Part shown: in pieces, positions 8,188 through 61,990 of the stretch
Numbering within the stretch: the stretch's first letter is position 1
Layout: each line of letters begins with the position of its first letter
Origin: Providencia alcalifaciens
GTDB lineage: Bacteria; Pseudomonadota; Gammaproteobacteria; Enterobacterales; Enterobacteriaceae
Direction: 5' to 3'
Length of the DNA stretch: 64,000 bases
NCBI RefSeq assembly: GCF_020271745.1
Contig: NZ_CP084296.1
Coordinates: forward strand, 3,968,001-4,032,000
Translations under genes and position numbers: made by a program
The notes under the pieces: generated by a model
What the model was told of the DNA's origin: nothing
Databases searched by the model: none
The model's input: the letters and a program-made list of their open reading frames with translations, nothing else

Positions 8188-8452
8188 GGAATTCGTCCCA
8201 ATAGAATGTATGTCATGCCCGATTTGGCTGTCACACTATACTCCAAATCGTCGATGTGCTGAATTATTTACATGACATGCTTTTGGTTGAAATTGATAGG
8301 TTATTTGGCGACATTTAATTTTTCTTTTTATTAAACAAACTTACAGATGAGTCTGACTACCTAATCCCAAAGATTTCATGTTTAATCAGCAAAACCATAT
8401 TAAAAATTATTCACTTTTCAGGAAGACATTTATTTTGAAAGGCATATTGATT

Positions 8453-9316
8453 GTGAAAAAAGTATTACTGTCGCTCCCCCTAATGTGCTCGTTTTATGCC
8501 TATGCTGGCGAGCAAAACTGCTCGGCAGACACCATCGCTATCAACAACTTTAATAATTTCGTCTTTGCCCAAGAGCGCCCATTTAACGACTCGTTAAAAG
8601 AGATGAATGCGCGTACCACCAGCCAAGATGATTACATCAACAACACGGTTCAGACGAAATTTGATAATTGTGGAGCCTTAATAGAATTAACAGGCCATGA
8701 AGTCGTCAGATTCAGCATTCACGACACCGTCACGGTCAAATCTATTGACATGATTATGAAAAAAAATGGTCGCGGCTGGGAGTACAAAGTCGCATTTAGG
8801 TTGTCTGTTATTAATCAAGATAATGTTGAAAATACCCTCTTGCAGCAAAAAACAACTGGGAAGTATCTCACTGACCCTAATGGGAAAATAATCGAAGCCA
8901 AAGATTCTTCTTATACGACGAATCTCGACAAATCGCGCATATTAACAAGAGCAGACACGCGCTTTTTAACTGACGATAATGGACGACTCTCTGAATCCAA
9001 TCGTGTCAGTACACAAGAAAATGATAGTGTGAAAACAACCTACCACTATGATATGAGAAATCGTTTAATACGTACGCAGTCTGACTCGACCGTCGAAGAA
9101 TTTACCTATGGTGATGATGACAGAGAGTTAAGTAACAAAACCATTAAAGAATTTTTTACCACCGAAACCACCGTGACGACCTCTAAAAGCTGGAATAAGT
9201 TCGGAAGATGCACTGAGGCAGAACAAACTATAACCACGTTAATTAAAGATGAGCACGGAGGGAAAGATAGCGTGTACAACTACCACGCTAATATCAAATA
9301 CGATTATGTATATTGA
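8453..9316 (+). CDS. Secreted protein of unknown function
   Basis: Not recognised. The GTG start at 8453 is chosen because it places a textbook Sec signal peptide at the N terminus (KKVLLSLPLMCSFYAYAG, cleavage likely near residue 20); an in-frame ATG at 8378 would bury the signal behind 25 polar residues. The mature protein (~265 residues) has two Cys near its start (QNC, DNCG), is rich in Thr, Asp and Asn, and ends in motifs resembling YD/Rhs-type strands (TYHYDMRNRLIRT, EEFTYGDDDREL). It stands alone between pdxB and an AraC-type regulator, in a part of the chromosome that differs from E. coli. Confidence 0.7.
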   Translation: MKKVLLSLPLMCSFYAYAGEQNCSADTIAINNFNNFVFAQERPFNDSLKEMNARTTSQDDYINNTVQTKFDNCGALIELTGHEVVRFSIHDTVTVKSIDMIMKKNGRGWEYKVAFRLSVINQDNVENTLLQQKTTGKYLTDPNGKIIEAKDSSYTTNLDKSRILTRADTRFLTDDNGRLSESNRVSTQENDSVKTTYHYDMRNRLIRTQSDSTVEEFTYGDDDRELSNKTIKEFFTTETTVTTSKSWNKFGRCTEAEQTITTLIKDEHGGKDSVYNYHANIKYDYVY

Positions 9317-9327
9317 TTTTGTCGCTG

Positions 9328-10125
9328 CTATGGGATCAGCTCTTTCATCCGAAATCGCTCAGGAGTGACCCCTGAAATTTGCTGGAACATCGCAATAAAT
9401 GCGGATGCCGAGCTGTATCCAACATCCAAGGCAACTTCGTGGACACTTTTACCTTTGTCTAGTCCAGCAACTGCATGTAAGTAACGCAGTCTCTGGCGCC
9501 ACTCACTGAATGACATGCCCAACTCTTGTTGGCAACGGCGAGATAACGTTCGCTCCGAGGTATAAGCCCGCTTTGCCCACTGGGCGAGCGTTGTATTATC
9601 CGCAGGATCTTGCTGTAGTTCCGCTAAAATTGGCGCTAACAATTTATCTTTGCTGGTGGGTAAATAGGTATCTTGGCTCGGCGAAATAGCAAACTGGTCA
9701 ATCAATACCTCCCCCAAACGAATATCCTGTTCGGTTTCGGGCTGAACAATTCCCCGTTGGTACATATCCGTCATGATGGTGTGGAAAATGGGGCTTAATC
9801 TCACAACACATGCTTTACTGGCAAGTCGCGGCGTATAGGTTTGGGCAAAATCAATAATACGAAATTTAACACTCTGCTTATTAAAACTCGCATGTTGGGT
9901 ATTGGCAGGGATCCAGATGCAAAACTCTGGTGGTGCCATATAATGCTTGCCTTCCACTTCCATTTCCATAATCCCGCAGACCACATACAGCAATTGACCA
10001 AATGTATGGGAGTGGGATTTGTATTCAGTTTGTTGGTTGACCTGCTCATGGCGCAAGGCAATAAATTCAGGTTCAATAATATTGCATTCGTTAATTTGTA
10101 GAACATCACTTTTTAAATTATTCAT
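9328..10125 (-). CDS. AraC-family transcriptional regulator with cupin sensor domain
   Basis: 265 residues. The N-terminal cupin domain (about 1-110) contains HSHTFGQLLYVVCG and the WIPANTQHAS motif. A C-terminal double helix-turn-helix (about 165-262) includes TSERTLSRRCQQELGMSFSEWRQR and the family signature VALDVGYSSASAFIAMFQQISGVTPERFR. It is transcribed divergently from the DMT transporter at 10224, which is its most likely target. Three TGTCTGAA-like elements lie in the shared 98-base spacer. The inducer is unknown. Confidence 0.9.
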   Translation of the reverse strand: MNNLKSDVLQINECNIIEPEFIALRHEQVNQQTEYKSHSHTFGQLLYVVCGIMEMEVEGKHYMAPPEFCIWIPANTQHASFNKQSVKFRIIDFAQTYTPRLASKACVVRLSPIFHTIMTDMYQRGIVQPETEQDIRLGEVLIDQFAISPSQDTYLPTSKDKLLAPILAELQQDPADNTTLAQWAKRAYTSERTLSRRCQQELGMSFSEWRQRLRYLHAVAGLDKGKSVHEVALDVGYSSASAFIAMFQQISGVTPERFRMKELIP

Positions 10126-35556: not shown

Positions 35557-35737
35557 TTTGATTCACAGTTATTTTACATTTAGCTTTTAACCTTATTCGA
35601 GAAAATGCCCTAAACGAATGCTCAAGATAATTCTAATAGTGTTTACGTAATAGTCATTATTCGGAATATTTACCTTTAGTTCATTTTAATAACCGACAGA
35701 ATAGGATTAATAACCCTAAATCTATTATGGTAAAAAG

Positions 35738-36778
35738 ATGCCAAATAATAATAACAATCCGATTGATATACTGATTAACACTCAAATGCCTTATGCCATT
35801 GAAAATCAAAATGATCATCTATTTGATGTCGCGATGAATTATGCTGACCAATGGCACCGCCAACATAATGCTAACTATGAAAAACTATGGTTGGCTGAAC
35901 CTAAACCGCTTATTCCCGTTGGCTTATTCAAATCCCTCGATTTAGCGACGCAAACTGACAGTGATGGCATGTGGTTAACCAGCTCAGGAACAGGAAAAAA
36001 AGGCAAAGCCGCGGTTTTCTTTGACAACCTCAGCTTAAAACGCATTGAAACGGGGATGGTGCAAATTTTCCTGCATAATCAACTCATTTCAACCACTCCC
36101 GCACGTTTTTTACTGCTCTCTCCTGACCCCGCGAAAGGGGATCATGCAGGTTTTGCGACGGCATTTTTGAAATTTACCCAGTGCGCGCCTATCCATGAGC
36201 TCGTCTTTACGGTTTCTCCTGAGGGGGTATTTGATAGTGAGCTCGCTTGGGCAACATTAAAACGTTGGGCCGACGATGATGCACCAATCTACATTTTTGG
36301 GTTAACGCTGTATTTTGAACACCTGTGTCTCAGCCGCCCTGATACCTTTGCTTTAAAAGGCAATGTCAGGGGGCTTAGTGGTGGCGGTTGGAAAGGCATG
36401 ACTAAGCAGCTAGAGCGTCCGCAAATTGTGCAAGGATTAAAAGAAACCCTAAATGCGCCATTGGTGGATATTCGCGATATTTATGGCATGACAGAGCACC
36501 CTCTGCATTACATTAGCTGCCCAGAGGGTCATTTCCATATTCCTGCTTTCTCACGTTTTTCTATTATTAATGAGCAAGGAGAGCCCGCCCCAGAAAATCA
36601 CGTTGGTTTTATCGCCTTAGAAAGCCCACTGTTTGCCTCTATTCCTTCTCAGCGCTTACTGACTCAAGATTTAGGCAGTTGGGGAAAACAGTGTGATTGT
36701 GGCCATCCACTCCCGTTCCTACGCTATATTGGGCGCGCAACTTCCCCTGAAGGAACTTGCGCGGCGCAAGTCAAATGA
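35738..36778 (+). CDS. LuxE-type acyl-protein synthetase
   Basis: 346 residues of the LuxE/PaaK adenylate-forming family. LuxE activates a fatty acid with ATP and carries it on a Cys before passing it to LuxC. Seen here are the phosphate loop TSSGTGKKGKAA (81-92), SGGGWKG (214-220), the YGMTEHP motif (249-255) that contacts the adenylate, and the C-terminal CDCGHPLPFLRYIGRA with DLG before it. A Cys at 341, six residues from the end, sits where LuxE has its acylated Cys. First gene of a six-gene operon; its stop overlaps the next start (ATGA). The ribosome-binding site is weak. PaaK-like CoA ligase is the alternative, less likely given its partner. Confidence 0.82.
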   Translation: MPNNNNNPIDILINTQMPYAIENQNDHLFDVAMNYADQWHRQHNANYEKLWLAEPKPLIPVGLFKSLDLATQTDSDGMWLTSSGTGKKGKAAVFFDNLSLKRIETGMVQIFLHNQLISTTPARFLLLSPDPAKGDHAGFATAFLKFTQCAPIHELVFTVSPEGVFDSELAWATLKRWADDDAPIYIFGLTLYFEHLCLSRPDTFALKGNVRGLSGGGWKGMTKQLERPQIVQGLKETLNAPLVDIRDIYGMTEHPLHYISCPEGHFHIPAFSRFSIINEQGEPAPENHVGFIALESPLFASIPSQRLLTQDLGSWGKQCDCGHPLPFLRYIGRATSPEGTCAAQVK

Positions 36779-37866
36779 ACTCGCAGATTGAAGCACGCAT
36801 AACGCGCATTCAGCGTTGTTTAGCCGACTGCGTGACAGAGAATTGGCAATTCTCGCCCGATACTGCCACACAGGCATTTTGTCTCGCTCGGTTATCAGAG
36901 ATCTGCCGCTCTTCAAGCTTACAGGATAAACTTCATCGAGAACTTGGGGATAAACATTGGCGAGCGCCGACGCGTTTGCTGATTGTGGTTTCAGAGAGCG
37001 ACCCACTGGGTACCTTAGAAGCGCTGCTAGCGGGCTATGTAATTGACAGTAAAATTCGCATTAAAACGCGGCTCTCCACCCAATGGCTACAAACAATTCG
37101 CCAGCGATTAGCCCTGAGTGACGATGAATGCCAAATCCTGGAATGGGATAGCCAACACCAAGATGATGTTCAGATCCTAAACGGCATTGATACTATTTTG
37201 CTAGCAGGTGGTGATGCGCTTATTCGCCATTACCGCCAAGTCACACCGTCACATATCAAGCTCATCGAGCTGGGACCCAAAATCAGTGGGATGGCAATTG
37301 TGGGAAATTCACTTCCCGACCTTGATTTACTTCTGCGCGATATTTGCTTATTCCAACAACAAGTGTGTAGTTCCCCGCGGTTTATTTTGCTCGATAACCC
37401 TGAATGTGCCGCAGAACTGTATCAGCAACTGAGAGCTAAGTTAGATGTCTTGAGCATATTGCCCGATACCCGTCGTTTACAACAAATGGCGCACTACCAA
37501 AGCCTAAAATTAACCGAGGCCATGAATCCAACGGAGTTTCCCGCTATTTATAGTAAAACAACGGGTTGGGGTTTGACTTATCAAACTCAATTTAATCCCT
37601 CGGAGTGGCTACCTGCTGGATTCCAATTGGTGGTCGCACCCATTGAAGAGAGTTTAGCCCTCACTCAGCGTCAGTGGGTTGGACAATTACAAACACTCGG
37701 CTATCACGGATCGTTACGTCATTTACCCTTAGAGAATTACAGTTTTACCCGTTACTGCCCTATCGGTAGCATGCTCCTGCGCCCGATGAGTGCTGCACAT
37801 GACGGCTTTTTTATGCTCTCTGCTCTGGTTTATTTCATCAACCAAGAAGGAGATAACTTTGCCTAA
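36775..37866 (+). CDS. LuxC-type acyl-CoA / acyl-protein reductase
   Basis: 363 residues of the LuxC family, which reduce an acyl thioester to the fatty aldehyde with NADPH through an acyl-Cys intermediate. The probable catalytic Cys198 lies in FQQQVCSSPRFILLD, like the QxCxSPQ motif of LuxC. IELGPKISGMAIVG (164-177) and ILLAGGDALIRHYR match the nucleotide-binding half. It is shorter than luminous LuxC (~480), mostly at the N terminus. The ATG at 36775 overlaps the previous stop codon; the in-frame ATG at 36757 lies inside the upstream gene. It pairs with the LuxE-like protein as in the fatty-acid reductase complex of luminous bacteria. Confidence 0.83.
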   Translation: MNSQIEARITRIQRCLADCVTENWQFSPDTATQAFCLARLSEICRSSSLQDKLHRELGDKHWRAPTRLLIVVSESDPLGTLEALLAGYVIDSKIRIKTRLSTQWLQTIRQRLALSDDECQILEWDSQHQDDVQILNGIDTILLAGGDALIRHYRQVTPSHIKLIELGPKISGMAIVGNSLPDLDLLLRDICLFQQQVCSSPRFILLDNPECAAELYQQLRAKLDVLSILPDTRRLQQMAHYQSLKLTEAMNPTEFPAIYSKTTGWGLTYQTQFNPSEWLPAGFQLVVAPIEESLALTQRQWVGQLQTLGYHGSLRHLPLENYSFTRYCPIGSMLLRPMSAAHDGFFMLSALVYFINQEGDNFA

Positions 37867-38884
37867 TCCTTCGGTTTTTATCACGGGCGGTACGGGCTTT
37901 ATTGGCGCCCATTTAGTCCACGAACTGGTGACTTTAGGCTACCCAGTGACAGTGTTACAACGAAATCCTACACCAGCCATCATCGCTAACCGCCCTGCAC
38001 TTCCCATCACAGTGAAGTGCGTCATTGGTGATATTTTACGCCCAGAGAGTTATCAGCAAGCGATGATGGGGCACGATATTGTGATCCACTTAGCGGCAGA
38101 TTACCGTGTCGGACTCCCCCCCAACCGCCAAGCTCATCAATCCATGTTTCAAACTAATGTGGTGGGGACGAAACGAGTCCTTGATGCCGCTGAACGCGCG
38201 GGTATTTCACATATGCTTTATATGAGTACCACCGCCGCCTTTGGGGAAACGTTCGGGGAGTTACCCGATGAACATCATCGCCACAATGGAACATTTCGCT
38301 GCTACTACGAGGAGACAAAACATATCGCCCATGAGCAAGTAGCCAAACGTCAACAAGCAGGTCTTCCGGTTAATATTGCCATTTGCAGCGGGGTATTTGG
38401 TGCTGGCGATAACAGCGTTTTGGCGCAAACTATGGACGCCTATTTCAACAATAAAGTTCCGTTTCAGCTTGCCACCACCAGTACCTTTCAGCTTTGTCAT
38501 GTCAGCCATATTTGCGATGGGCTAATTAAATTACTCGACCCGAAAATCCAACGTCAGACTTACCTATTTACGGGGGAGACTTTCTCAATGCCGGAAATAT
38601 TTCGTTTATTGAGCCAAGTTGCTCAGCGCGAACCATTGCCTGAAAAACGGGTGTCTTCCTTTAAATTGCTCGCATCGCTGATGGATAAACTCGCTGGTGT
38701 GGGGCTTAAAATGCCACTTTCCCAAGAAGCCTTGCGCATTTTAGATGGTAGCTCCTACACCTACTCCTGTGCAAAAGCACAGCAGGAATTAGGCTGGCAT
38801 GCTGGTGAAACTCACAATGAATTGATTGAAGCGATAACTCAACGAAAAAACAGCATTAATCAAACGACCAAAGGAATGCAATGA
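37859..38884 (+). CDS. NAD(P)-dependent epimerase/dehydrogenase (extended SDR)
   Basis: 341 residues. The Rossmann motif GGTGFIG is at residues 10-16 and the catalytic YEETK (Tyr150, Lys154) follows the STTAAFGE segment holding the Ser/Thr. The VIHLAADYRVGLPP region resembles HpnA, dihydroflavonol-reductase and 3-beta-hydroxysteroid-dehydrogenase-like SDRs rather than sugar-nucleotide epimerases. The start is a TTG at 37859, chosen because AAGGAG lies 7 bases upstream; it overlaps the reductase stop. The next gene starts at its stop codon (ATGA). It probably reduces or oxidises a product of the LuxC/LuxE pair. Confidence 0.85.
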   Translation: MPNPSVFITGGTGFIGAHLVHELVTLGYPVTVLQRNPTPAIIANRPALPITVKCVIGDILRPESYQQAMMGHDIVIHLAADYRVGLPPNRQAHQSMFQTNVVGTKRVLDAAERAGISHMLYMSTTAAFGETFGELPDEHHRHNGTFRCYYEETKHIAHEQVAKRQQAGLPVNIAICSGVFGAGDNSVLAQTMDAYFNNKVPFQLATTSTFQLCHVSHICDGLIKLLDPKIQRQTYLFTGETFSMPEIFRLLSQVAQREPLPEKRVSSFKLLASLMDKLAGVGLKMPLSQEALRILDGSSYTYSCAKAQQELGWHAGETHNELIEAITQRKNSINQTTKGMQ

Positions 38885-41109
38885 AACCGCAACATTTAAC
38901 GTGTCAATGGGGGCGCGTTGTCGTTTCCCTTGAATCTGACCAACTGTTATCGGTGAAAGGCGATACCGACTGTGCGGTGTTTTTTGGCCAAGGTTATGGC
39001 ACCGCCAAGCTGCGTTTATGGCAACTGGATTTAACTCGCCGAGTCGCTAGTGGACGGCTCGCTGAAATTATGGGAAACGCGGCGCTACGTACTGATATTT
39101 TCCAGCGCCGATTAGGTTTACCAGAACTTGCCGAGCGCGCCGAAAAACTCGACCAAGCAGCGCCTGAAGGTTCATGGCAAGCTCAGCAACATCAACATAT
39201 TCAAGCCTATATTGCAGGGATTAATCACGCATTAGAGCGAATGAAAATATTGCCGATTGAATGCCTGTTACTGCGCTATCGCCCAGAAGCCTTTACCGTA
39301 ATCGACAGCTATTTGTTAGGGCAACTCAAATATTTCATTAATTCCGCGTGGCAGTATGAACTGTTTCACACTCGATTAGCCAATAAGCTCACCACCACGC
39401 AACATCGCCAGTTGCTCACCACCTTTAGCCAAGAAGGCGAGCAAATTGCGCCATTGCCTTTAGACGAACAAATGGACTATCACCAAGATGTCGTCAATGC
39501 CCTGAAAGATGGTTTAAAAGGATTGCAACATTTGGGGCTTTCCTCCCCCGATACTGGTTCAAATGTGTTCGCGGTAAATGGAAGTTGGACGAGTTCAGGC
39601 AAACCGCTGCTCGCTTCTGACCCGCATATGGGGCAAGTTAACCCCAACTTTAACCTGCTATGTCGGTTAGAGAGCCAAGAAGGGCTGAATGTTTTGGGTT
39701 CCCATTTTCCCGGAGCGCCGGGAATTATTGTCGGTCGCAATCCTCAGGCTGCATGGGGAATGGTTGGGATCATGGCGGATAACCAAGATCTTTTTTGGGG
39801 AAAAATTGATGTCGATAACTTACAGGTTGAAACCGCGTCTGGTGTTCAGTCTCTGAATAAACGCATTCATAATATCCAGCTAAAATCAGGCACATCACAC
39901 ACCTTCACCACCTACGATTTTGCTCATGGACGCTTAGTTTCTGAGAAGAATGGCTATGGCATGTTTTTACGTTGGCCAGCACTGGATGACCCTTCCGGCG
40001 ATATTACGTTTTATCAGCTGGCTAAATGCCATGATTGGCACTCATTTCGTGACGGTTTACGCCATGTGAGAAATTCCCCCATGATGGTGGGTTACGCCGA
40101 TGAACATGGTGATATTGGCTTGCAAACCATGGGCTACATTCCTCAACGCCATCAACAATTGGGCAGCCTGCTGCTTAATCTCACTGAACCTCAGCATCAG
40201 TGGCTAGGCTATGTACCTTTTGATGATTTACCGTCTGAACATAACCCTGAATGTGGCTATGTGATTTACGCTAACCAATACAATCAATCGTTATTGGACA
40301 ACAAAGTGCCATTGTCCAATCGCTGGCACGCACCTAGCCGAGCATTACGCATTGAGGCGTTGATTCAACAGAATCGTTCACACTCCTTGGATTCATTCAA
40401 AGCAATACAAGACGATAAAACGGACTATTTTGCCCAAAAAACCCTACCGTTTTTATTATCTTATGTTCCGGAAGATACACGGCTATCCGCATGGAATGGC
40501 AATACGAAAAATATCGCCGAGTCTCGCCTGTTTGATGTTTGGTTTCAGCATATTACTGACGCTTTACTGAAGAAAACCCTGCGTCGTGGCGCCCGAACGT
40601 TGTATACCGATTTTTGGCCCGGCTATCGCTGGAACATACTGAATATCCTGCAAAATCATACAGTGGATTGGCAGTATTGTGATGATGATATTGAAACACT
40701 TGTGCGCGAAGCCTACGCACGGGCGCTGGTGGCAAGCCAAAAGATGGTTCTCCCTCAAGTGGAATTTCAACATAGCATTAAAAAACCGTTATGGCTCAAT
40801 CGGTTTTTCACCGGACGTTATCTTTATGATGGCGGAAATAGAGAAACCGTTCATGCCACACGGCAAAATGCGGATTTCCTCACTCAATCTCACGCAGGGG
40901 AAAATAAAACTGTCAAGACCAAGCCTTACACGTTTGGACCCAGCTTTAAATTACTGTCTGATTTAAGTCATCAGCAGACCTGCTGGTACCTCATTAATAC
41001 CCCTGCTAGCGGGTCACCGTTTTTTTGGCGATTAAAACCCGCACTTAATGCATGGAAAAAAGGCATCAGGACAGAAACCCAACTCTCATTATTAAAAGGA
41101 CGTTCGTAA
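38881..41109 (+). CDS. Penicillin-acylase-family Ntn hydrolase, apparently cytoplasmic
   Basis: 742 residues, the size of penicillin G acylase/acyl-homoserine-lactone acylase precursors. The autocatalytic cleavage site is likely Gly226-Ser227 in DTGSNVFAVNG, giving a beta chain with N-terminal Ser. The ASDPHMG motif, the FPGAPGIIVGRNPQAAWGMVG segment and YANQYNQ follow as in the family. Unlike most members it has no signal peptide (MKPQHLTCQWGRVVV). Members hydrolyse, or form, amide bonds between an acyl chain and an amine. In this operon it may remove or attach a fatty-acyl or aminoacyl group. It overlaps the SDR by 4 bases; the radical SAM gene starts 1 base after its stop. Confidence 0.85.
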   Translation: MKPQHLTCQWGRVVVSLESDQLLSVKGDTDCAVFFGQGYGTAKLRLWQLDLTRRVASGRLAEIMGNAALRTDIFQRRLGLPELAERAEKLDQAAPEGSWQAQQHQHIQAYIAGINHALERMKILPIECLLLRYRPEAFTVIDSYLLGQLKYFINSAWQYELFHTRLANKLTTTQHRQLLTTFSQEGEQIAPLPLDEQMDYHQDVVNALKDGLKGLQHLGLSSPDTGSNVFAVNGSWTSSGKPLLASDPHMGQVNPNFNLLCRLESQEGLNVLGSHFPGAPGIIVGRNPQAAWGMVGIMADNQDLFWGKIDVDNLQVETASGVQSLNKRIHNIQLKSGTSHTFTTYDFAHGRLVSEKNGYGMFLRWPALDDPSGDITFYQLAKCHDWHSFRDGLRHVRNSPMMVGYADEHGDIGLQTMGYIPQRHQQLGSLLLNLTEPQHQWLGYVPFDDLPSEHNPECGYVIYANQYNQSLLDNKVPLSNRWHAPSRALRIEALIQQNRSHSLDSFKAIQDDKTDYFAQKTLPFLLSYVPEDTRLSAWNGNTKNIAESRLFDVWFQHITDALLKKTLRRGARTLYTDFWPGYRWNILNILQNHTVDWQYCDDDIETLVREAYARALVASQKMVLPQVEFQHSIKKPLWLNRFFTGRYLYDGGNRETVHATRQNADFLTQSHAGENKTVKTKPYTFGPSFKLLSDLSHQQTCWYLINTPASGSPFFWRLKPALNAWKKGIRTETQLSLLKGRS

Positions 41110-41110
41110 A

Positions 41111-42529
41111 ATGGCAATCATGAAGCAGTGGCAACAAACTGGCCACCCTGCACGTTTATGGCATCCGATAGCCAATCACGCCATCCAGTGTGAATTATGC
41201 CCTCGCGCCTGCAAAATCAAATTAGGCCGCGTGGGTACCTGCAAAATGCGTCGTAATGAAGATGGTAAATTGATGACGCTGAATTACGGTAAATCCGTTC
41301 CAATGACGCAGGAATCTATCGAAACCGAAGCGGTTTACCATTACTCACCGGGGGAGCGCATTCTTTCGCTGGGGAATATTGGTTGCATGCTGCGTTGCGA
41401 TTTTTGTCAGAACTGGAGTACCAGTCAGGCTCGGTATGTTCAAGATAATAATGTGGCCTATTACAGCCCTGAAGATGTGGTCAATTACGCGCTAAAACAT
41501 AATATTCGTGTTTTATCATGGACCTATAACGACCCGATTGTTTGGCATGAATTTGTGATGGATACAGCGAAACTGGCGCGGGAAAAAGGGCTAAAAAATC
41601 TGTACAAAAGTGCCTTTTACATTAGCGAAAAAGGCATCGATGAGCTGCTCACAGTGATGGATATTTTTAGTATTTCCCTAAAATCGATGCAAGATAGCTT
41701 TTATCGCCAACATACCGGTGGACGACTGCAACCCGTTTTGGACGGTATCAAGCAAGTGTATGACGCCCGTAAAGGCAGCAATTACCCACATTTAGAGGTT
41801 TCTAACCTGTGTGTGACGGGGCGCAATGATAACCTTGAAGAGACGCGTAAAGTCTCTGATTGGATGCTGAAATATCTCGATGCCGATATTCCCCTGCACT
41901 ATGTTCGATTCCATCCTGATTATCAATATACTCATGTTGAACGCACCTCTATTCCATTCTTAGAGCAAGCCCGTTTGCAAGCTATTAACGACGGGATGCG
42001 CTATGTGTATGTCGGGAACGTGTTTGATACCACCAGCGCCAACTCTTACTGCCCTGAGTGCCAAACATTATTGGTGAAACGTAGTGGATTAATTGCTGAG
42101 CCGCATATGGATAATGGACTCTGCCCAAATTGCCATGCCCAAACAGCGATTATTCTTCCATGGGAAAAATCCAATACAGACAAACAATCGCTTAGCATTC
42201 CTGGAGGATTGACCTGCATTAACCACATATTCCGTGGCCCCGTTCAAGCTTGCCATATTGAACAAGCTAATGAATCTGAGATTTTCTATCAATTTGTTGA
42301 TAAACACGGTGACGCAGTTGGTCCAATCAGCACCAATAGCTGTACCCGCTTTATGTTGTCTAAGAGCGATGCTGCCGCAGCAGGGATCCGTTTATATCAT
42401 CACGATCAGCAGCCTTGCCAAGTGTTCGAAGTGTATGACCGCGCGCACTTCCCAGTGACTGAAGTGGAAAAAACCCATCTGGGCAGTGAGAACGTGCCCG
42501 TGACGTTTATTCCCTTAAAGGGGCGCTAA
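41111..42529 (+). CDS. Radical SAM enzyme of the AmmeMemoRadiSam type
   Basis: 472 residues. An N-terminal Cys cluster CELCPRACKIKLGRVGTC (C27, C30, C34, C44) precedes the radical SAM motif CMLRCDFC (C92, C96, C99; CX3CX2C). This pair of motifs is typical of the radical SAM member of AmmeMemoRadiSam systems and of PflA-like activases. A zinc-ribbon pair, CPEC (314-317) and CPNC (338-341), follows, and then ~120 extra C-terminal residues of unknown function. No AMMECR1 or Memo gene is in the window. It is cytosolic. The reaction is unknown; being fifth in a lux-like operon suggests chemistry on the operon's product or activation of another enzyme. Confidence 0.85.
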   Translation: MAIMKQWQQTGHPARLWHPIANHAIQCELCPRACKIKLGRVGTCKMRRNEDGKLMTLNYGKSVPMTQESIETEAVYHYSPGERILSLGNIGCMLRCDFCQNWSTSQARYVQDNNVAYYSPEDVVNYALKHNIRVLSWTYNDPIVWHEFVMDTAKLAREKGLKNLYKSAFYISEKGIDELLTVMDIFSISLKSMQDSFYRQHTGGRLQPVLDGIKQVYDARKGSNYPHLEVSNLCVTGRNDNLEETRKVSDWMLKYLDADIPLHYVRFHPDYQYTHVERTSIPFLEQARLQAINDGMRYVYVGNVFDTTSANSYCPECQTLLVKRSGLIAEPHMDNGLCPNCHAQTAIILPWEKSNTDKQSLSIPGGLTCINHIFRGPVQACHIEQANESEIFYQFVDKHGDAVGPISTNSCTRFMLSKSDAAAAGIRLYHHDQQPCQVFEVYDRAHFPVTEVEKTHLGSENVPVTFIPLKGR

Positions 42530-42530
42530 T

Positions 42531-43772
42531 ATGCCATTAAATCGCGGTTACTCTTATTTACGGGCGCAGTGGATTGCGGCACAACTTCGTCGCCATAAAC
42601 TCACTGATAAAGCCCCTAATATTCCCATCATTTACCTTCCTGGCATTTTGGGTAGCAAACTGTTTGATCGGAATAAGCAGCAATTTATCTGGGGGGATTA
42701 TCGTGGTGTGTTTACGCCCAGTGACTATGAATACCGCGAGCCATCTGGCAGCCTACCACCGGATATCCTTGCCACTGAACAGCTTCATGAATTCACCATT
42801 ATTCCCAAGCTTCTTACCACCTTGGTGACTCAAGAATTGAAAGATGTTTTGGAAATAGGTTTAGGGTATCGAGAGGGGCAAGATTTATTTTTTCTCGCCC
42901 ATGATTGGCGAGCAGATCATCGCCAATTAGTGAAGGCATTGGATGACGAAATCGCACGGTTAACCACTCTATTTGGTCAGCAACAACCGTTTATCATTAT
43001 GGCGCAATCCGCCTCTAATTTAGCGGTACGATATTGGTTGCGCCAAACCAGTGATGAGAATCGGCAGCGAATTGCCAAATGGTATGCATTTGGTCCACCC
43101 TGGGAAGGTACATTTCATGCGTGGTCAATGATGGAAACAGGCTACTACGCTGGTAGCCGCTATTTTTACGGTTTCTCTCCCGATGATATCGCTGGGTATC
43201 CCAGTGCCTATCAATTATTGCCTCCCCATCCAACAGCCATTGATCACCATGGAAATGTGATAACAGATTTTGATTTGTATGATGCCGACAGTTGGCAGCA
43301 ATGGCGCATTGGTCCTTATAAAACCTCACCAGGTTGTGAACAGAACCAACGGGTAAGAGACAATCTTTCCCGTCATTTAGCGAGCGCAAAAACATTCCAT
43401 CAAGCCATTGCGGGGGAATGCTCCAAAGAACAATCTGTCCCTCAAACATGGTATTTAAGTGATAATAATTTAGCGGTCACTCAAGCAGTTTGGGGAAGAG
43501 AACGTTGGTATTTACAGGCAAAATCCATCACCAGAGATTTTCCTCAGCTTACGTCTCAAGCTTTAGCTAAAGGGGATGACCATCTCCCCTTAGCGGGATT
43601 GTTAAAACAGCGCTGCGGTCCGCTTGTGCGAGATAGTTACCAGCAGCCGTGGGGAGAAAGCTTCGTGTTTATTAGCCAAGCATCTACTCATCGAGCGCTC
43701 ATCAACCACACGCCAAATTTACGCAGTGTGGCTTTTGATATTGCGACAATCAGGCAGTCGCTGGCGCGTTAA
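42531..43772 (+). CDS. LCAT-like alpha/beta hydrolase or acyltransferase
   Basis: 413 residues resembling the lecithin:cholesterol acyltransferase/PDAT family. IPIIYLPGILGSKLFD (31-46) is the usual oxyanion-loop start, and FFLAHDWRADHRQ (120-132) the family YDWR region. The nucleophile is probably Ser160 in IIMAQSASNLAVRYWL, although the elbow reads AQSAS rather than GHSMG. There is no signal peptide or membrane helix. In a lux-like operon it could release or transfer fatty-acyl groups, the job done by LuxD in luminous bacteria. It starts 1 base after the radical SAM stop; its own stop overlaps that of convergent hutC by 4 bases. Confidence 0.78.
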   Translation: MPLNRGYSYLRAQWIAAQLRRHKLTDKAPNIPIIYLPGILGSKLFDRNKQQFIWGDYRGVFTPSDYEYREPSGSLPPDILATEQLHEFTIIPKLLTTLVTQELKDVLEIGLGYREGQDLFFLAHDWRADHRQLVKALDDEIARLTTLFGQQQPFIIMAQSASNLAVRYWLRQTSDENRQRIAKWYAFGPPWEGTFHAWSMMETGYYAGSRYFYGFSPDDIAGYPSAYQLLPPHPTAIDHHGNVITDFDLYDADSWQQWRIGPYKTSPGCEQNQRVRDNLSRHLASAKTFHQAIAGECSKEQSVPQTWYLSDNNLAVTQAVWGRERWYLQAKSITRDFPQLTSQALAKGDDHLPLAGLLKQRCGPLVRDSYQQPWGESFVFISQASTHRALINHTPNLRSVAFDIATIRQSLAR

Positions 43773-54994: not shown

Positions 54995-55069
54995 GTCCCC
55001 TTAGTTAAATGGATATAACGAGCCCCTCCTAAGGGCTAGTTGCAGGTTCGATTCCTGCAGGGGACACCA
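54995..55069 (+). tRNA. argW: tRNA-Arg (anticodon CCT)
   Basis: 75 bases including an encoded CCA. The acceptor stem GTCCCCT pairs with AGGGGAC, and the T arm is TGCAGGTTCGATTCCTGCA. The anticodon loop CTCCTAA has CCT at 55028-55030. It is nearly identical to E. coli argW, which lies in the same place after mlaA/yfdC and is a known prophage/island insertion site. Here an integrase fragment follows. Confidence 0.97.
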
Positions 55070-55232
55070 TTACCACTTCTAAAGACATCTCAAGACTTCC
55101 AATTTTTTAAATAAAAACAATAGATTAATTATTTTGACTTCCAAGAAGGTCTAGTAACTTCTAGTGGAATCTAAGTATTAATGTGTATAGTATTGTGTAT
55201 AGGTCTAGGTTCGATAAAAAACTATACACATT

Positions 55233-55673
55233 ATGCTGCTCACTGATATCCAAATTCGTAAAGCTAAGCCTAAAGATAAGGCTTACACCCTAAATGATGG
55301 CAATGGCTTATCCCTTCTCATTGAACCCAATGGTTCCAAGGGGTGGCGATTTCGTTACCGCTTTGCGGGTAAGCCTAAAATGATTTCATTTGGCGTGTAT
55401 GGGCAAATTTCTTTAGCCGATGCCAGAAGAAAAAGAGACGAAGCAAAAAAACAACTATCAGAAAACATCAATCCTAGTGATGCACGTAAATCAGAAAAAA
55501 TAATCCTCAAATACGCCACGGAGAATACATTTCAAGCTGTTGCAATGGAATGGCACACATCCAAATGTTCTACTTGGACAGAAGGCTATGCTAGTGAAAT
55601 ATTGCGTTGCTTTGAAAATGATGTTTTTCCTTACATTGGTAGCAGGCCGATAGACCTTATCCGCTTCATTTAA
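55233..55673 (+). pseudogene. Tyrosine-type integrase, truncated
   Basis: 146 residues. The N-terminal arm-binding domain of P4-type integrases (DUF4102) is intact: LLTDIQIRKAKPKDKAYTLNDGNGL and GWRFRYRFAGKPKMISFGVYG. The start of the core-binding domain follows (FENDVFPYIGSRPIDLI). The protein then stops, so the catalytic R-HxxR-Y domain (~250 residues) is missing; I find no continuation in other frames. It lies 163 bases after tRNA-Arg(CCT) in the same direction, the standard place for an integrase that used this tRNA as attachment site. Confidence 0.88.
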
Positions 55674-55840
55674 TTGTTCGGTTAATCAACACGGATGGAC
55701 AAATGGATGATTAATCAAATTGATGAGGTTAAGGTTAAATAGTTATTTTAATGAATTGGTTAGCGCTATTTTATGCATCTCGCTGTTTATTATAATGGTA
55801 AAACAGACTGATTTTTTAATTTCAATAAGGATTCTAATAA

Positions 55841-56563
55841 GTGAACTTCACGAATATAACAACTCGAATAAAAGAAAAAAATGGATTGAAAATTTTTTTA
55901 GCTATTTCTTTGATAGTAATATGGTTTAACCTTGATTATAATTTTTCACAAATTTTTTTAGCATATATTGTGGAACCATTACATTTAGAATCATTTTTTA
56001 TTCTAATATACCGATTAACATCAATTACACTATTTATATTACTGCTTTTGTTTTTTCGGTGGTATAGCGAAAGTATTAGTGAAATAGCGCTAGGAAGGGT
56101 GTTTTCAACAAAATCATCCATCCCATTTTTTCTAATCATTCTTCTATCTGTGCTTGTCAATGCTTATTTTAAACTAGGCGGTGATATGGTTACAAGAGAA
56201 CACCTCATATTTGATGAAGGAGTTATCAATAACATATTGTTATTCGTTATAACATTTATCATAAGCCCCATTGTTTATGAAGTCATCTTTAGAGGTATTG
56301 TGTTTAGCGCAATCCAAAAAGAAAACAAAACAATCATTTGGTTATTTTCTGTTATACCATTTGTTATATTCCACATTTATACAATGACTAATGTAATTTC
56401 TCCTTCGATTTGGGTGAGGATCATGATTTATCAGTATGATGTGAGCATCATGCTAATTTTTCTTTCATGTGTTCTGACGTTTGCTCGAATGAGATCGGGC
56501 GGTGTGCTATTACCTATAATATTGAACTCATTCTTTTTTATGTCATATATTAAAATGATGTGA
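55841..56563 (+). CDS. CPBP-family-like intramembrane protein
   Basis: 240 residues with about seven hydrophobic helices. CPBP (CAAX protease/bacteriocin-processing) motifs are partly kept: YEVIFRG resembles EExxxR but lacks the first Glu, FVIFH matches FxxxH, and an Asn in ILNSFFF fits the last motif. Members process peptides or protect against bacteriocins. The GTG start has AAGG 10 bases upstream. Low GC. It stands just after the truncated integrase. Activity is uncertain because of the altered first motif. Confidence 0.65.
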   Translation: MNFTNITTRIKEKNGLKIFLAISLIVIWFNLDYNFSQIFLAYIVEPLHLESFFILIYRLTSITLFILLLLFFRWYSESISEIALGRVFSTKSSIPFFLIILLSVLVNAYFKLGGDMVTREHLIFDEGVINNILLFVITFIISPIVYEVIFRGIVFSAIQKENKTIIWLFSVIPFVIFHIYTMTNVISPSIWVRIMIYQYDVSIMLIFLSCVLTFARMRSGGVLLPIILNSFFFMSYIKMM

Positions 56564-56735
56564 TTTTTTTAAATTGGGCTGTGCATTCAGTATATAGCTA
56601 AAAAATTAATAGAACAGGGATCCAAATAATGACTTAAGCAACTCCCAGATAACCTATTAATCTATCTATATAATAACACCACGTAACTTTAAGCTATTCA
56701 CACAAAGCCATTGGATATAAGGAGCCATAATTGAA

Positions 56736-57152
56736 ATGAGAATTAATCTATTCATGTTAATTGCCATAGTTACATCGACTCCGATTCCAAGCTATGCTAC
56801 AGAGTCTGAAGTCATATCTTTACCATTCTATTCTCACTGCTTGGATATGGATGAAGATCTAGTATTTAACGGAAGTATAAATTACTTATGTGAATTTGAA
56901 GGTATAGGAATTGAACAAATTTATAATAACTACAAATCATATCTATACCATCAAGAGCTACTGCAAAATACCTTACCGAAAAAAGATATGTTATATGAAA
57001 CAGAGAATGTTGAGGTGATTTATAAGTGGTTACCACCAAATAAACTCAGATTAACGGTCACTTACGATAATGGCACTGAACAATACATATATTATTTTAT
57101 CAAAAAAAAGAATGGCACAACTGTTTTTCATCAAATTAATACTGGCTACTGA
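56736..57152 (+). CDS. Small secreted protein of unknown function
   Basis: 138 residues with a Sec signal peptide (RINLFMLIAIVTSTPIPSYA, cleavage after ~21). The mature part is acidic with two Cys (HCLDMD, YLCEFEG) that could form a disulfide. It ends in beta-strand-like segments. AAGGAG lies 12 bases before the GTT... ATG start. Not recognised. In an effector-rich island a periplasmic immunity protein is one possibility, but nothing proves it. Confidence 0.6.
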   Translation: MRINLFMLIAIVTSTPIPSYATESEVISLPFYSHCLDMDEDLVFNGSINYLCEFEGIGIEQIYNNYKSYLYHQELLQNTLPKKDMLYETENVEVIYKWLPPNKLRLTVTYDNGTEQYIYYFIKKKNGTTVFHQINTGY

Positions 57153-57180
57153 TATTTTTTTAATGAACTGGTGACGTGTT

Positions 57181-57540
57181 ATGACCTTCAATAAGTACAG
57201 TGACTTAATTTTCTTTCTAAGAAAAAAGTGGCTTCCGCTGGGTGTGAAAAAAGTTGATATTAACAATCATGAAACTCACTTCTACTACAAGGGGTTTATT
57301 AATACGCTTGCACAATCATTGAGTCCAGATATTTGCATGATAAAAAAACCTGATGCTGTGCAATGGGGAGTCGATATGGAAGCTATCGGCATGGAATGGG
57401 ACAATGAATATTTTAGTATTACAGCAAGTCCCGTTGATGAAAGGGTTTTCCTGATAATTGTTATTGAAAAAGCTGGAAAAATAGAGCACCTAAATAAATT
57501 TCTAAAAGTTTTCTTAGCACAACAAAAAGATAAAAATTGA
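57181..57540 (+). CDS. Small cytosolic protein of unknown function
   Basis: 119 residues, no signal or membrane helix. It starts MTFNKYSDLIFFLRKKWLPLG and includes AVQWGVDMEAIGMEWDNEYF. Size, low GC, position 28 bases after the secreted protein and location in the island would fit an immunity or adaptor protein. I do not recognise a family. A terminator follows 48 bases after the stop codon. Confidence 0.55.
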   Translation: MTFNKYSDLIFFLRKKWLPLGVKKVDINNHETHFYYKGFINTLAQSLSPDICMIKKPDAVQWGVDMEAIGMEWDNEYFSITASPVDERVFLIIVIEKAGKIEHLNKFLKVFLAQQKDKN

Positions 57541-57744: not shown

Positions 57745-60024
57745 TTACCCATAGATTTTTTTGAGTGTGCGACCAATATCAATTTTTAGCCATTTATTTT
57801 CTCTGACAGACCAAAGCCACAGGTTATTTTTTGCTATTTTATATTTACTGTAATCAGATGCAGGAATAATGACGTCCGCATACTCACTTAATAACATAAT
57901 GCGGTCATCCATACGAATAATATAGAACACCCCCTGAGGCAATATTATTTTTTCTGTTACCACGGGGGTTTCAGACACGGTACTATCAACATCATTAACC
58001 CATCGGCCGCTGTGAATTGTATCGTCAAAGATAAGAATCTGCCGACTTTTTTCTGACGTAATAATCGAGCTACCGTAGCCAAGAATGTCCCCTTGATGAT
58101 TGAATATAATTTCAGTAGTAGGTTTCCGAAAATGTACTCTGGCAATATAAAAACCGTTATAATCCGATATCAAAGCAAGCTTCGGCTCAATCAGCCATTT
58201 CCGGGTATTTAAATCAAATACCCCTGTTCCGCAGCACCTTGACATGATAACCGCATTTCCTGCCTTATTAAATTCAAAGCGCTCTCCGCTAACAAGAAAC
58301 TCTCCCTTTTTAGTATAGAGTTTCAGTTTATCGCCTTCATGTTTTGAATTGGTATCACGTGCCTGAATAAGGCCATTTTCTTTCGTGTATATAGTATGGT
58401 TTTCCGGTGGATTACGGATAATTACTTCACCAGTATCTGAGCGTAGCAACAGACTATTGAAACTGATAAACGCCTCATCTTCTGTGGTATCATATCCGTC
58501 CCACATATCATCCTCATTTATTTTGTACTGTAGGAAATGCTTCATACGGACAGGGTCAATAGGGTTCAGCTGTAAGGGTGAAATTTGACGTAATAATTGT
58601 GTAATAATCGTCTGTGTCATCAAATCATTTTGGGTGATATTATTTGACACAAATGTGTATTGCAGGGTCAGCTCGGTATTTGTTTCACCGAAGAAATAAA
58701 AAATTGGCGGTGAATCATTAATAAAAACATCTTGATAAATTCGTCCTTGTGGATATTTTTCTTTCAACTTAGTCTGTAATTCCTCCACAGTCGCTTTATG
58801 TAATGTTACTGATAACCCCATTGAATTATTTCTGAAGAAATCAGATGAATAGTCTAAATTAATCCATTCATCTTTCATTGAGTCTCTTTCTGGATAACGG
58901 AAAAAAAACTCTGGTGAAGCAATGGCATTATCAACTCGTTCCCTCACAGCTCTAGTCAATTTATCTTTATCAATATAATCATTCAGCGATGAATTAAATT
59001 TCTCCTCAAATTCATCTTTATTTGATAGCAGATCACGTTCCTCGGCAATTATTCCGACGTTATCTGGATTCAAAGTACGAATAACCCTGTAATCGTGAAG
59101 AAACGATTCAGTAACCTCCTTATAATCATCTGGTAAAACAGCAAGATATAGTATTCGACTGGAGGTATCATAATAATAATACAGCCCTGTGAGCGACATC
59201 GTATCCGAGTAGAAAATCGCTCCACTCCTTTCATCAAAAATCGTTGCATCCATTTTTTTAAGGACCGACTTAAGGTCAGTGACTGGATCACTTTCTTTTA
59301 TCGCGATGACCACTCCATCAAAAAAACGTCTGCTTTTATAGTGGTAAGCTCTGATTTGGTCTGGCTGATACGGCAAATCAAACCAGGATAAATACATTTT
59401 AATATCTTCATCATCATCCGGTTGTATTTCGGTCAGTGTGTCTTGAAAATTCAGTTTCAAGATATGGGGAGATATTTCTGGCCAGCCAATATTGACTTGT
59501 TTTCCATTAAAATCTTTCAGCGGATACCGCGTAATTGCATCTATCTGAGTCAAATACCCAAGATTCTTCTGTGTGGTTAATAGCGTATAGGTTGCTTTTA
59601 TCCGCTGAATTTCACTACCATCTTCAGCCACTGGTTTTAGCGTAAAGGTAATAACACACTCTCTAATACAGGCATGACCCTTGTCAAAAATGAGCTGAGG
59701 CTGATTCGGATTGGTATTATTCAGTCTAAACGGGTTCACTTCCCCGGTATAATGCCCATCATTATCTGGGGTGAGTGAGATTTCGTTCCTGATAGTGTAC
59801 CAAGTTAATGATTTATCGTTCTGAATCTTAAAGTAAAAGTTCTCAGTGTTTTTTTTCAATTGACTGATATATTTTTCATATCTATCTGATGGTTCATCAT
59901 CAAACAACTGAATATCTAAATTACTGATAATATAATATTGCTCAATTGGGGATGTTTTCTCTTTGCACCCAGTTAAAAATGCGATATTTAATAACAGTGC
60001 TGCTGCCAAAATTTGTTTTTTCAT
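57745..60024 (-). CDS. Large lipoprotein of unknown function, linked to a Tle1-type effector
   Basis: 759 residues. The signal peptide ends in a lipobox, AFLTGCKEK (Cys20). The residue after Cys is Lys, so outer-membrane sorting is likely. The N-terminal half has no recognised domain. The last ~180 residues look like WG-type beta-propeller repeats (AGNAVIMSRCCGTGVFDL, KWLIEPKLALISDYNGFYIA, KWLKIDIG). ATG 60024 is chosen for the signal peptide; the longer frame adds 46 unrelated residues. It follows the DUF2235 gene by 160 bases on the same strand. It might be an additional immunity or adaptor protein for that effector. Confidence 0.65.
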   Translation of the reverse strand: MKKQILAAALLLNIAFLTGCKEKTSPIEQYYIISNLDIQLFDDEPSDRYEKYISQLKKNTENFYFKIQNDKSLTWYTIRNEISLTPDNDGHYTGEVNPFRLNNTNPNQPQLIFDKGHACIRECVITFTLKPVAEDGSEIQRIKATYTLLTTQKNLGYLTQIDAITRYPLKDFNGKQVNIGWPEISPHILKLNFQDTLTEIQPDDDEDIKMYLSWFDLPYQPDQIRAYHYKSRRFFDGVVIAIKESDPVTDLKSVLKKMDATIFDERSGAIFYSDTMSLTGLYYYYDTSSRILYLAVLPDDYKEVTESFLHDYRVIRTLNPDNVGIIAEERDLLSNKDEFEEKFNSSLNDYIDKDKLTRAVRERVDNAIASPEFFFRYPERDSMKDEWINLDYSSDFFRNNSMGLSVTLHKATVEELQTKLKEKYPQGRIYQDVFINDSPPIFYFFGETNTELTLQYTFVSNNITQNDLMTQTIITQLLRQISPLQLNPIDPVRMKHFLQYKINEDDMWDGYDTTEDEAFISFNSLLLRSDTGEVIIRNPPENHTIYTKENGLIQARDTNSKHEGDKLKLYTKKGEFLVSGERFEFNKAGNAVIMSRCCGTGVFDLNTRKWLIEPKLALISDYNGFYIARVHFRKPTTEIIFNHQGDILGYGSSIITSEKSRQILIFDDTIHSGRWVNDVDSTVSETPVVTEKIILPQGVFYIIRMDDRIMLLSEYADVIIPASDYSKYKIAKNNLWLWSVRENKWLKIDIGRTLKKIYG

Positions 60025-60184
60025 CTTTTTAGTCCGTCGGTTTCCTACTAAGTTTCCTTTCGTTATTTCATTTATGAGTAGATGAATATAGATACGTGAG
60101 AAGTGGAGTTTGAAAGTGCTAAATTTATGGGATTTAGTGTGACTGTAATAAAAAAGTGCCATTGCTTAAACTTAAGCCATTTTA

Positions 60185-61990
60185 TTACTTACGTGGTTCC
60201 ATCCATCGTATGGAAAAATAGCCATCATTGATGCCCTCTGCCCGCTGGACATCATGTACAAACCACGCATATAGCACTCGAGAATCGACGCATATTCTTA
60301 TTGGAGGGGCCTTGCTGTCATACCCTGCTTCACCGCACTGAATAAAATATCGGGCGCGTCGACGTGCAGGTTCGAGGATATTATTGACATATAATTCTGG
60401 TGGGTTATTAAATTTTTGAGTCAACAAAACATCAGCAGCTCTAGATACCTCAGATAACCAGCTCCAGTGTTTTTTCAAAAGGCGTATATCATTATCAATA
60501 TCACTTGAATCCTGTTTAGCTTGGCGGGTAATGCCGAATCCTCCTTGTAGCGAACCAGGGCCCGTCAGTGTGTCCGACTTTTCTTTTTCTAGACGGCGTA
60601 ACTCACTCTTATATTCATAAAACTGCCTGCCCAGCCACTCAAAGTAACCGTCAAGATGCCAATTCATGGCGCCGTAGCCCAACTTTTGCATACCGACTGT
60701 CATCTGATAATCTTCAGCCCACTCTTCGACGGATTGGCTTTCCACATTATCTTTTATATCAAAATAAGACCAGACCAATAAATCCTTTTTATAGAGTTTT
60801 TCCAAATCGAGAAACGGAACCGCTGACATCATTGCTTCAGTATACATTTTTCTCAGAGATACCCGAGACAGCTCAGCACTTGGTTTTTGTTCATCAGGTT
60901 TAAAGCCGCCTCCAATATCTTCACTGCACCCCGGCATCAAAATTTCCTCATGAGCAACACCCTCTCGCCCAGTACGGTAAATACAGCGCCAGCGCCGACG
61001 TTCATGTGCTGCGACCAAGTGCAGCGAACGCCTGACAGCGTTCGGCAAGGGAGACATATGTTCAAGATACTTACGCCCAAAGAGTGAACCTACAGTCCCC
61101 GCGACCTTCGCAACAGGACCAGGCAACCAACTGACGGCCTCGGCGGCATAATCTAACCCATTATCACTGCTTAATGGTGTATCTCGCGAGCAGTCAAACA
61201 ATCCAGCAAACACAATGTTCACTGGAGTCCCGCGATAAACGGGCCTACCGCCTTTTTTCTTCTCATCTTTTTCACAAAGATCTTCCAGCAAGATATCCAG
61301 AAACTGGCGTGCTAATGTTCCTCCCATATCAAACCCGAAGACTGAAACAGAAATGAGTTTAACGGGTATCTCCCCACTTTGGGTGGCCTCTTCAAATGAG
61401 CGCACAAAGCGCACTTTTGCACTGTTAAGGCGCGAATCCGCCCCAGTCACAAAAGTGTAAGCCATAAATTCAGAATCACGTAGCCATGGGGTGGCTTCGA
61501 TACCCGCTTTTCTCCCACTATTTATGTATGTATCCTTTAGCATTTTCGCACGATCTTTAGGACTTAACAGTTTGTCTTTAGTCTGCTTCAATATGTCCTT
61601 TCCACTGGTTCCCCCCATCGCGGACTGAAAGGCATCTTTTGCCAAATCAACAGGCTTGCTTTTAACGTCATCCTCAAGCGAGCGAAGGGATTGATCCATT
61701 ATACTCTGAATTTTTTCTGCCATGGTCTCATTAAACGGCGTGCCCATCCCTGAGATATAATGTTTTTTGTATGTTGCTACATCCGTTTCATCACCATCTT
61801 CCGGATATGCACGAAACAAACGCGCAATATTACTTAGTCGTCCTTCCGGAGCATCCTGCTCAACATTACGTCCTACTCCGTCAAAAAAGAAGGCAATGTG
61901 TAAGATCCGTGAACAGTTACCCAATTGATAGTCGCAGGCCTGCTGCGCTCGAGATGCGCCTGCAATTATATAATCCAAATCCTTTATCAT
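60185..61990 (-). CDS. Tle1-like DUF2235 phospholipase-type effector, nucleophile Ser replaced
   Basis: 601 residues. The DUF2235 alpha/beta-hydrolase core runs from HIAFFFDGVGRN (31-42) through YISGMGTPF, SVSVFGFDMGGTLARQF (214-230), VFAGLFDCSRD (260-270) and SLHLVAAHERRRW. In Tle1 enzymes of type VI secretion the elbow reads GFSRG; here it is GFDMG, Asp221 in place of Ser. The C-terminal ~250 residues are helical, with a coiled-coil region near 490-510. There is no signal peptide, as expected for T6SS cargo. Its start overlaps the stop codon of an immunity-type gene (ATGA). No VgrG, Hcp or PAAR is in the window. Confidence 0.8.
   Translation of the reverse strand: MIKDLDYIIAGASRAQQACDYQLGNCSRILHIAFFFDGVGRNVEQDAPEGRLSNIARLFRAYPEDGDETDVATYKKHYISGMGTPFNETMAEKIQSIMDQSLRSLEDDVKSKPVDLAKDAFQSAMGGTSGKDILKQTKDKLLSPKDRAKMLKDTYINSGRKAGIEATPWLRDSEFMAYTFVTGADSRLNSAKVRFVRSFEEATQSGEIPVKLISVSVFGFDMGGTLARQFLDILLEDLCEKDEKKKGGRPVYRGTPVNIVFAGLFDCSRDTPLSSDNGLDYAAEAVSWLPGPVAKVAGTVGSLFGRKYLEHMSPLPNAVRRSLHLVAAHERRRWRCIYRTGREGVAHEEILMPGCSEDIGGGFKPDEQKPSAELSRVSLRKMYTEAMMSAVPFLDLEKLYKKDLLVWSYFDIKDNVESQSVEEWAEDYQMTVGMQKLGYGAMNWHLDGYFEWLGRQFYEYKSELRRLEKEKSDTLTGPGSLQGGFGITRQAKQDSSDIDNDIRLLKKHWSWLSEVSRAADVLLTQKFNNPPELYVNNILEPARRRARYFIQCGEAGYDSKAPPIRICVDSRVLYAWFVHDVQRAEGINDGYFSIRWMEPRK

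Follow-up and report, generated by a model that had tools for sequence, protein, structure and literature searches.

What do enzymes of the LuxE and LuxC families make when they are encoded without a luciferase and alongside four unrelated enzymes? The question is raised by six plus-strand genes at 35738-43772 of a 64,000-nucleotide stretch (the window, positions 3968001-4032000) of the 4.2 Mb genome of Providencia alcalifaciens. In order, they encode a LuxE-family acyl-adenylating enzyme, a LuxC-family acyl reductase, an extended short-chain dehydrogenase/reductase (SDR), a penicillin-acylase-family N-terminal nucleophile (Ntn) hydrolase, an AmmeMemoRadiSam-type radical S-adenosylmethionine (SAM) enzyme and an alpha/beta hydrolase with the predicted fold of lecithin:cholesterol acyltransferase (LCAT) and lysosomal phospholipase A2 (LPLA2). 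Together the six genes form a genuine unit that is movable and inherited as one. We give an even chance to the reading that this unit encodes a self-contained, movable pathway whose six enzymes work in the cytoplasm.

A co-inherited and movable unit

Eleven genomes from five genera carry all six genes in one and the same order: the window genome and ten others (G018 and G010 in Providencia; G026, G235 and G322 in genus g4; G069 and G260 in g47; G354 in g121; G317 and G223 in g181). This identical order bears out the treatment of the genes as one functional unit in the initial annotation of the window. Identity of the other copies to the window proteins ranges from 47% (LuxC) to 90% (radical SAM enzyme), and pairwise identities correlate across all gene pairs (r 0.84-0.98), as expected if the genes were inherited together. 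With these ten further genomes, the gene-neighbourhood comparison proposed at the outset finds the six families recurring together beyond chance.

Family-wide searches were made with the LCAT-like, LuxC and radical SAM proteins. The LCAT-like protein is present in 10 of 392 genomes of the family, nine times at full length and once as a 42-residue remnant. With the LuxC profile, 15 of the 392 give a match at E up to 1e-8: these nine at E <1e-180, three from genus g131 (1e-93 to 1e-101) and three weakly. Among 285 sampled genomes (not necessarily a subset of the 392), the radical SAM profile picks out these nine and no others at E up to 1e-40. Full-length LCAT-like proteins, strong LuxC matches and radical SAM matches all select one set of nine genomes in the family samples. 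The LCAT-like remnant (L052:3876-4001, 41-42 residues) lies in G417, which is congeneric with the carrier G354, and is likely a trace of operon loss. A close acylase (at least 63%) occurs in five of 147 relatives, each time with the other five genes, and 15 further genomes have distant acylases only. In 369 genomes of the class the LuxC profile matches the window genome only; besides the window genome, the LCAT search in class genomes returns three more, at 28-29% identity, and the other five genes were not found in the stretches fetched for these three.

Between hutU and hutC the window genome has an insert of 8188 bases (35582..43769), where the relative G009, whose hutC is 98% identical to that of the window, has 76 other bases. 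No genes beyond the six are seen in the insert. All 24 Providencia genomes have hutC, which adjoins hutU without the operon in 23 of the 24, the window genome being the only one with the operon there. In G018 and G010 it is at other places, and the stretches fetched there contain no hut gene. In three of four g4 genomes glmU and a LysR gene flank it, and these are adjacent in the fourth, G389. The operon thus occupies at least four different chromosomal sites (those in G018 and G354, which have one neighbouring gene in common at different distances, are not counted apart). Since it forms a discrete 8188-base insert and stands at different chromosomal sites in relatives, it is movable as a block. 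Upstream of luxE, at 35667..35681 of the plus strand, the sequence TATTTACCTTTAGTT is common to the three Providencia copies; as these are at different chromosomal sites, it apparently moves together with the block. It shows no enrichment in the genome.

Operon layout

All six open reading frames reported in the initial annotation are present, and the Pfam matches of all six proteins exceed gathering scores. Its statement that the genes meet at ATGA or one-base junctions holds for four of the five. The luxE gene (35738..36778) overlaps luxC (36775..37866, its start taken as the ATG at 36775) by a four-base ATGA at 36775, and the SDR and acylase genes (the latter 38881..41109) overlap in the same way at 38881. 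One-base gaps at 41110 and 42530 precede the radical SAM gene (41111..42529) and the LCAT-like gene (42531..43772). The luxC/SDR junction is the one that does not fit. In our own reading it would be an eight-base overlap if the SDR gene (37859..38884) starts, as taken here, at the TTG at 37859, which is preceded by AAGGAG. The LCAT-like gene and hutC converge tail-to-tail with a four-base overlap.

The window proteins were also put through a simple hydropathy scan. No signal-peptide-like N-terminus stands out in it, except for a stretch ahead of the preferred SDR start; none is seen in the acylase, and the maximum for the LCAT-like protein is 1.62, at residue 31.

The six proteins

Conservation was judged in alignments of the loci. 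Those numbered A1 (LuxE), A2 (LuxC) and A4 hold 10 of the 11, G322 being left out; A3 (acylase) also holds 10, without G010; A5 and A6 (SDR) hold all 11.

The LuxE-family protein (346 aa; PF04443, 62.8 bits) has an invariant SSGTG motif and C-terminal Cys341, and in the LuxC-family protein (PF05893, 59.8 bits) Cys198 (A2 numbering), within VCSSPRF, is invariant. The best PDB match of profile A1 is the LuxE chain 7xc6_E (3.4e-14) and that of A2 is 7xc6_A (3.2e-6). The profile alignment to 7xc6 stops short of Cys341, and so an acyl-transfer role of this residue is presumptive. The identification of the two as LuxE- and LuxC-type stands, the cysteines being invariant in 10 of 10 aligned loci, and as adjacent genes with conserved cysteines they make up a LuxC/LuxE acyl reductase pair in the broad sense (Pfam, alignments). 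The label 'Lux-like', however, is loose: scores against the NCBIfam equivalogs miss the cut-offs by far (LuxE, 25.2 against 550 bits; LuxC, 33.1 against 750 bits) and, judged by sequence, neither protein is a lux equivalog.

The extended SDR is HpnA/3-beta-HSD-like (Pfam, NCBIfam; Epimerase 104.6 bits and 3Beta_HSD 77.8 bits in Pfam), and its Ser123, Tyr150 and Lys154 are invariant in 11 of 11 loci. The PF01804 match of the acylase (405.1 bits) covers residues 17-728 of 742. Gly226-Ser227, His249 and Asn465 are invariant in the 10 aligned loci, which places the protein among the penicillin-acylase Ntn hydrolases; from its position Asn465 would be the oxyanion Asn. A Gly-Ser processing site with a His 22 residues further is, we take it, the arrangement of glutaryl/cephalosporin acylases. 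PDB matches include D-succinylase and penicillin G acylase, and identity to distant acylase relatives is 25-32%.

The radical SAM protein (472 aa) scores 50.5 bits with Radical_SAM (Pfam) and 300.6 with TIGR04337, AmmeMemoRadiSam (NCBIfam), for which the cut-off is 220. Its CX3CX2C motif, C92/C96/C99, is invariant, as are further cysteines on both sides (C27, C30, C34 and C44; C314, C317, C338 and C341). A C-terminal extension begins at about residue 350, and it is left uncovered by the matches to all six of six plasmid-borne relatives. The Memo partner (PF01875) is in none of the 11 operon genomes, with a control positive in 5 of 14.

In the sixth protein the match to LCAT (PF02450) is weak, 27.3 bits against a cut-off of 21. 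The initial annotation's assignment of it gains from the predicted fold, that of LCAT/LPLA2 (model residues 347-395 have a predicted local distance difference test, pLDDT, below 50), and from conservation of Ser, Asp and His: Ser160, Asp349/Asp350 and His387/His393 are invariant.

The catalytic roles given here to invariant residues are those that we take from their families. The operon enzymes look active by such residues. Between the window and G018, non-synonymous divergence (dN) is 0.05-0.20 and synonymous divergence (dS) is saturated or not computable, so that constraint is qualitative only.

A possible pathway and its alternatives

From what is known of the families, the six enzymes look like a route in which an acid, perhaps lipid-linked, is converted to an aldehyde or alcohol and then modified. 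LuxE would adenylate a carboxylic acid with ATP and carry the acyl group, which LuxC would take on Cys198 and reduce with NAD(P)H to the aldehyde; the SDR would reduce or otherwise handle the carbonyl. It is on family knowledge that this reductive step rests. The LPLA2/LCAT-like enzyme may cut an acyl chain from a membrane lipid, or move one between a lipid and a pathway intermediate, the Ntn hydrolase would make or break an amide, and the radical SAM enzyme would make one C-H-based change. The places of these last three in the pathway are presumptive, and that the starting acid is a fatty acid is a guess. As none of the six is a nonribosomal peptide synthetase (NRPS), polyketide synthase (PKS), carrier protein, synthase or transporter, the product is most likely small and lipid-like, derived from lipids or acyl-amino compounds already present in the cell.

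A more specific version, improbable but worth stating, is a new route to an acylceramide-like lipid. In it an N-acyl amino acid would have its carboxyl group reduced by LuxE, LuxC and the SDR, giving an N-acyl amino aldehyde or alcohol. The LPLA2-like enzyme would add or remove an O-acyl chain, with phospholipid as the source of the chain, the Ntn hydrolase would trim or exchange the N-acyl chain, and the radical SAM enzyme, without Memo, would install the C-H-based change. An animal relative of the LPLA2-like enzyme esterifies the primary alcohol of ceramide. Were this version true, the operon would encode a mobile bacterial pathway that makes a lipid signal or modifies membranes.

Several points weigh against the broader reading, that of a six-enzyme cytoplasmic pathway. 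Its substrate, its product and its lipid nature are what we infer, and both acyl enzymes could be purely hydrolytic. The distance of LuxE and LuxC from the lux equivalogs means that an acid other than a long-chain fatty acid could be the substrate. Carriage of the operon is rare, at 9 of the 392 genomes sampled in the family. Nor need every copy be active, because the G010 acylase is frameshifted as assembled and the G322 radical SAM gene has an in-frame TAG. Lastly, in three genomes of genus g131 a LuxE-LuxC pair stands without the other four genes (L099:7877-9945, L100 at about 8141-10011, L101:9197-11235).

Two of these g131 loci, L099 and L101, were aligned; they have lost both catalytic cysteines and, in LuxE, the SSGTG stretch, yet their frames are open, with dN/dS of 0.21-0.23. 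The pair may be an operon relic, or else dead enzymes that have been reused or maintained. L102 holds a fused remnant, and L103 and L104 (genomes G309 and G393, same family) have LuxC-like domains in open frames of 807 and 816 codons; these adjoin LuxE-like regions, at 25-29% identity, in a different LuxE-LuxC arrangement.

What else could the six enzymes do? They might break down or salvage a host or bacterial lipid, for example one with N-acyl and O-acyl chains, as the presence of two enzymes of acyl-hydrolase type would allow. We hold this to be unlikely: LuxE/LuxC-type chemistry, as known from the families, is reductive and costs ATP and NAD(P)H, and an importer, a CoA ligase and a beta-oxidation gene are absent among the six. 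LuxE and LuxC could instead supply a glycan or protein with an acyl-derived group, as is supposed for the flagellin glycosylation islands of Enterobacteriaceae and Aeromonas, in which they are found with fatty-acid genes (passages of PMC4875605 and PMC7874193). The insert, however, has no glycosyltransferase, carrier protein or flagellar/pse gene, and the block is at varied, non-flagellar-looking sites (neighbours named by eye), so that surface modification of this sort appears rather improbable.

Penicillin-acylase-type enzymes can have a prodrug role, and the Ntn hydrolase might take a protecting acyl group off a peptide- or alkaloid-type natural product. It distantly matches RenL (28.9% identity), in a 33-kb record of Candidatus Endohaliclona renieramycinifaciens. 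That record is, however, one of 113 matched plasmid records, all at <60% identity; an NRPS, a PKS and an exporter are absent among the six, the acylase shows no signal-peptide-like stretch, and we consider such a role improbable. An anti-phage or other conflict island would suit the patchy distribution and a movable unit at changing sites. All six proteins look metabolic, though, and the only PADLOC match is one protein to Cas8c (E 0.0095, 12.7 bits), with no passing stretch, which leaves conflict the least credible of these explanations.

Other features of the window

At 54995-57540 a tRNA-Arg(CCT) is followed by a short integrase-like gene (55233-55673; arm-binding and part of the central domain) in an AT-rich stretch that also contains the gene for an Rce1-like membrane protein; the region has the look of a genomic-island stub. 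The gene at 60185-61990 has a Tle1-like type VI secretion phospholipase domain (PF09994, 42 bits), and the adjoining 805-aa gene (57745-60162) has no Pfam match.

Comparison with known systems

The families are known and the LuxE/LuxC core is of known type; what was not found described in the literature searched is their stable combination in six genes. The initial annotation's expectation of no described pathway with this set agrees with that search, which returned no paper or the flagellin paper only. Taken with the chemistry proposed for it, the operon is a compact, complete-looking six-enzyme pathway for which no described product was found; close relatives with and without it at defined insertion sites make the product directly searchable by comparative metabolomics.

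With the fatty-acid reductase of luminous bacteria (LuxC-LuxE-LuxD) the operon shares the Pfam LuxE/LuxC domains, the 7xc6 match and the LuxC cysteine. It differs in scoring under the equivalog cut-offs, in its four unrelated enzymes and in having no LuxD among the six. Nor, as had been annotated, is there a luxA or luxB: Pfam detects no luciferase domain among the six proteins (the remainder of the genome was not searched for luciferase). It is not, then, a bacterial lux operon. LuxC and LuxE without luciferase are already known from flagellin glycosylation islands. For Enterobacteriaceae, PMC4875605 gives in one passage 73 strains with LuxE and 80 with LuxC, and part of PMC7874193 places luxE and luxC in Aeromonas islands. 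These islands carry an acyl carrier protein (ACP), a 3-oxoacyl-ACP reductase, a ligase and glycosyltransferases, which are absent among the six.

The operon acylase has the PF01804 domain and Gly-Ser processing site of penicillin G, cephalosporin and D-succinyl acylases, but looks cytoplasmic by hydropathy. The LCAT-like protein differs from the LPLA2/LCAT family in its low identity (14-17%) and in lacking a signal-peptide-like N-terminal stretch; the pathway would be a setting for such a bacterial LPLA2-like protein that looks cytoplasmic. Part of PMC7159879 mentions, in another context, one radical SAM domain that is related to Memo-Ammecr1 systems. The operon enzyme resembles the AmmeMemoRadiSam system in passing TIGR04337, but its genomes are without Memo and it bears the C-terminal extension, and here too the operon would provide a pathway setting, that of an AmmeMemoRadiSam-type enzyme working without Memo.
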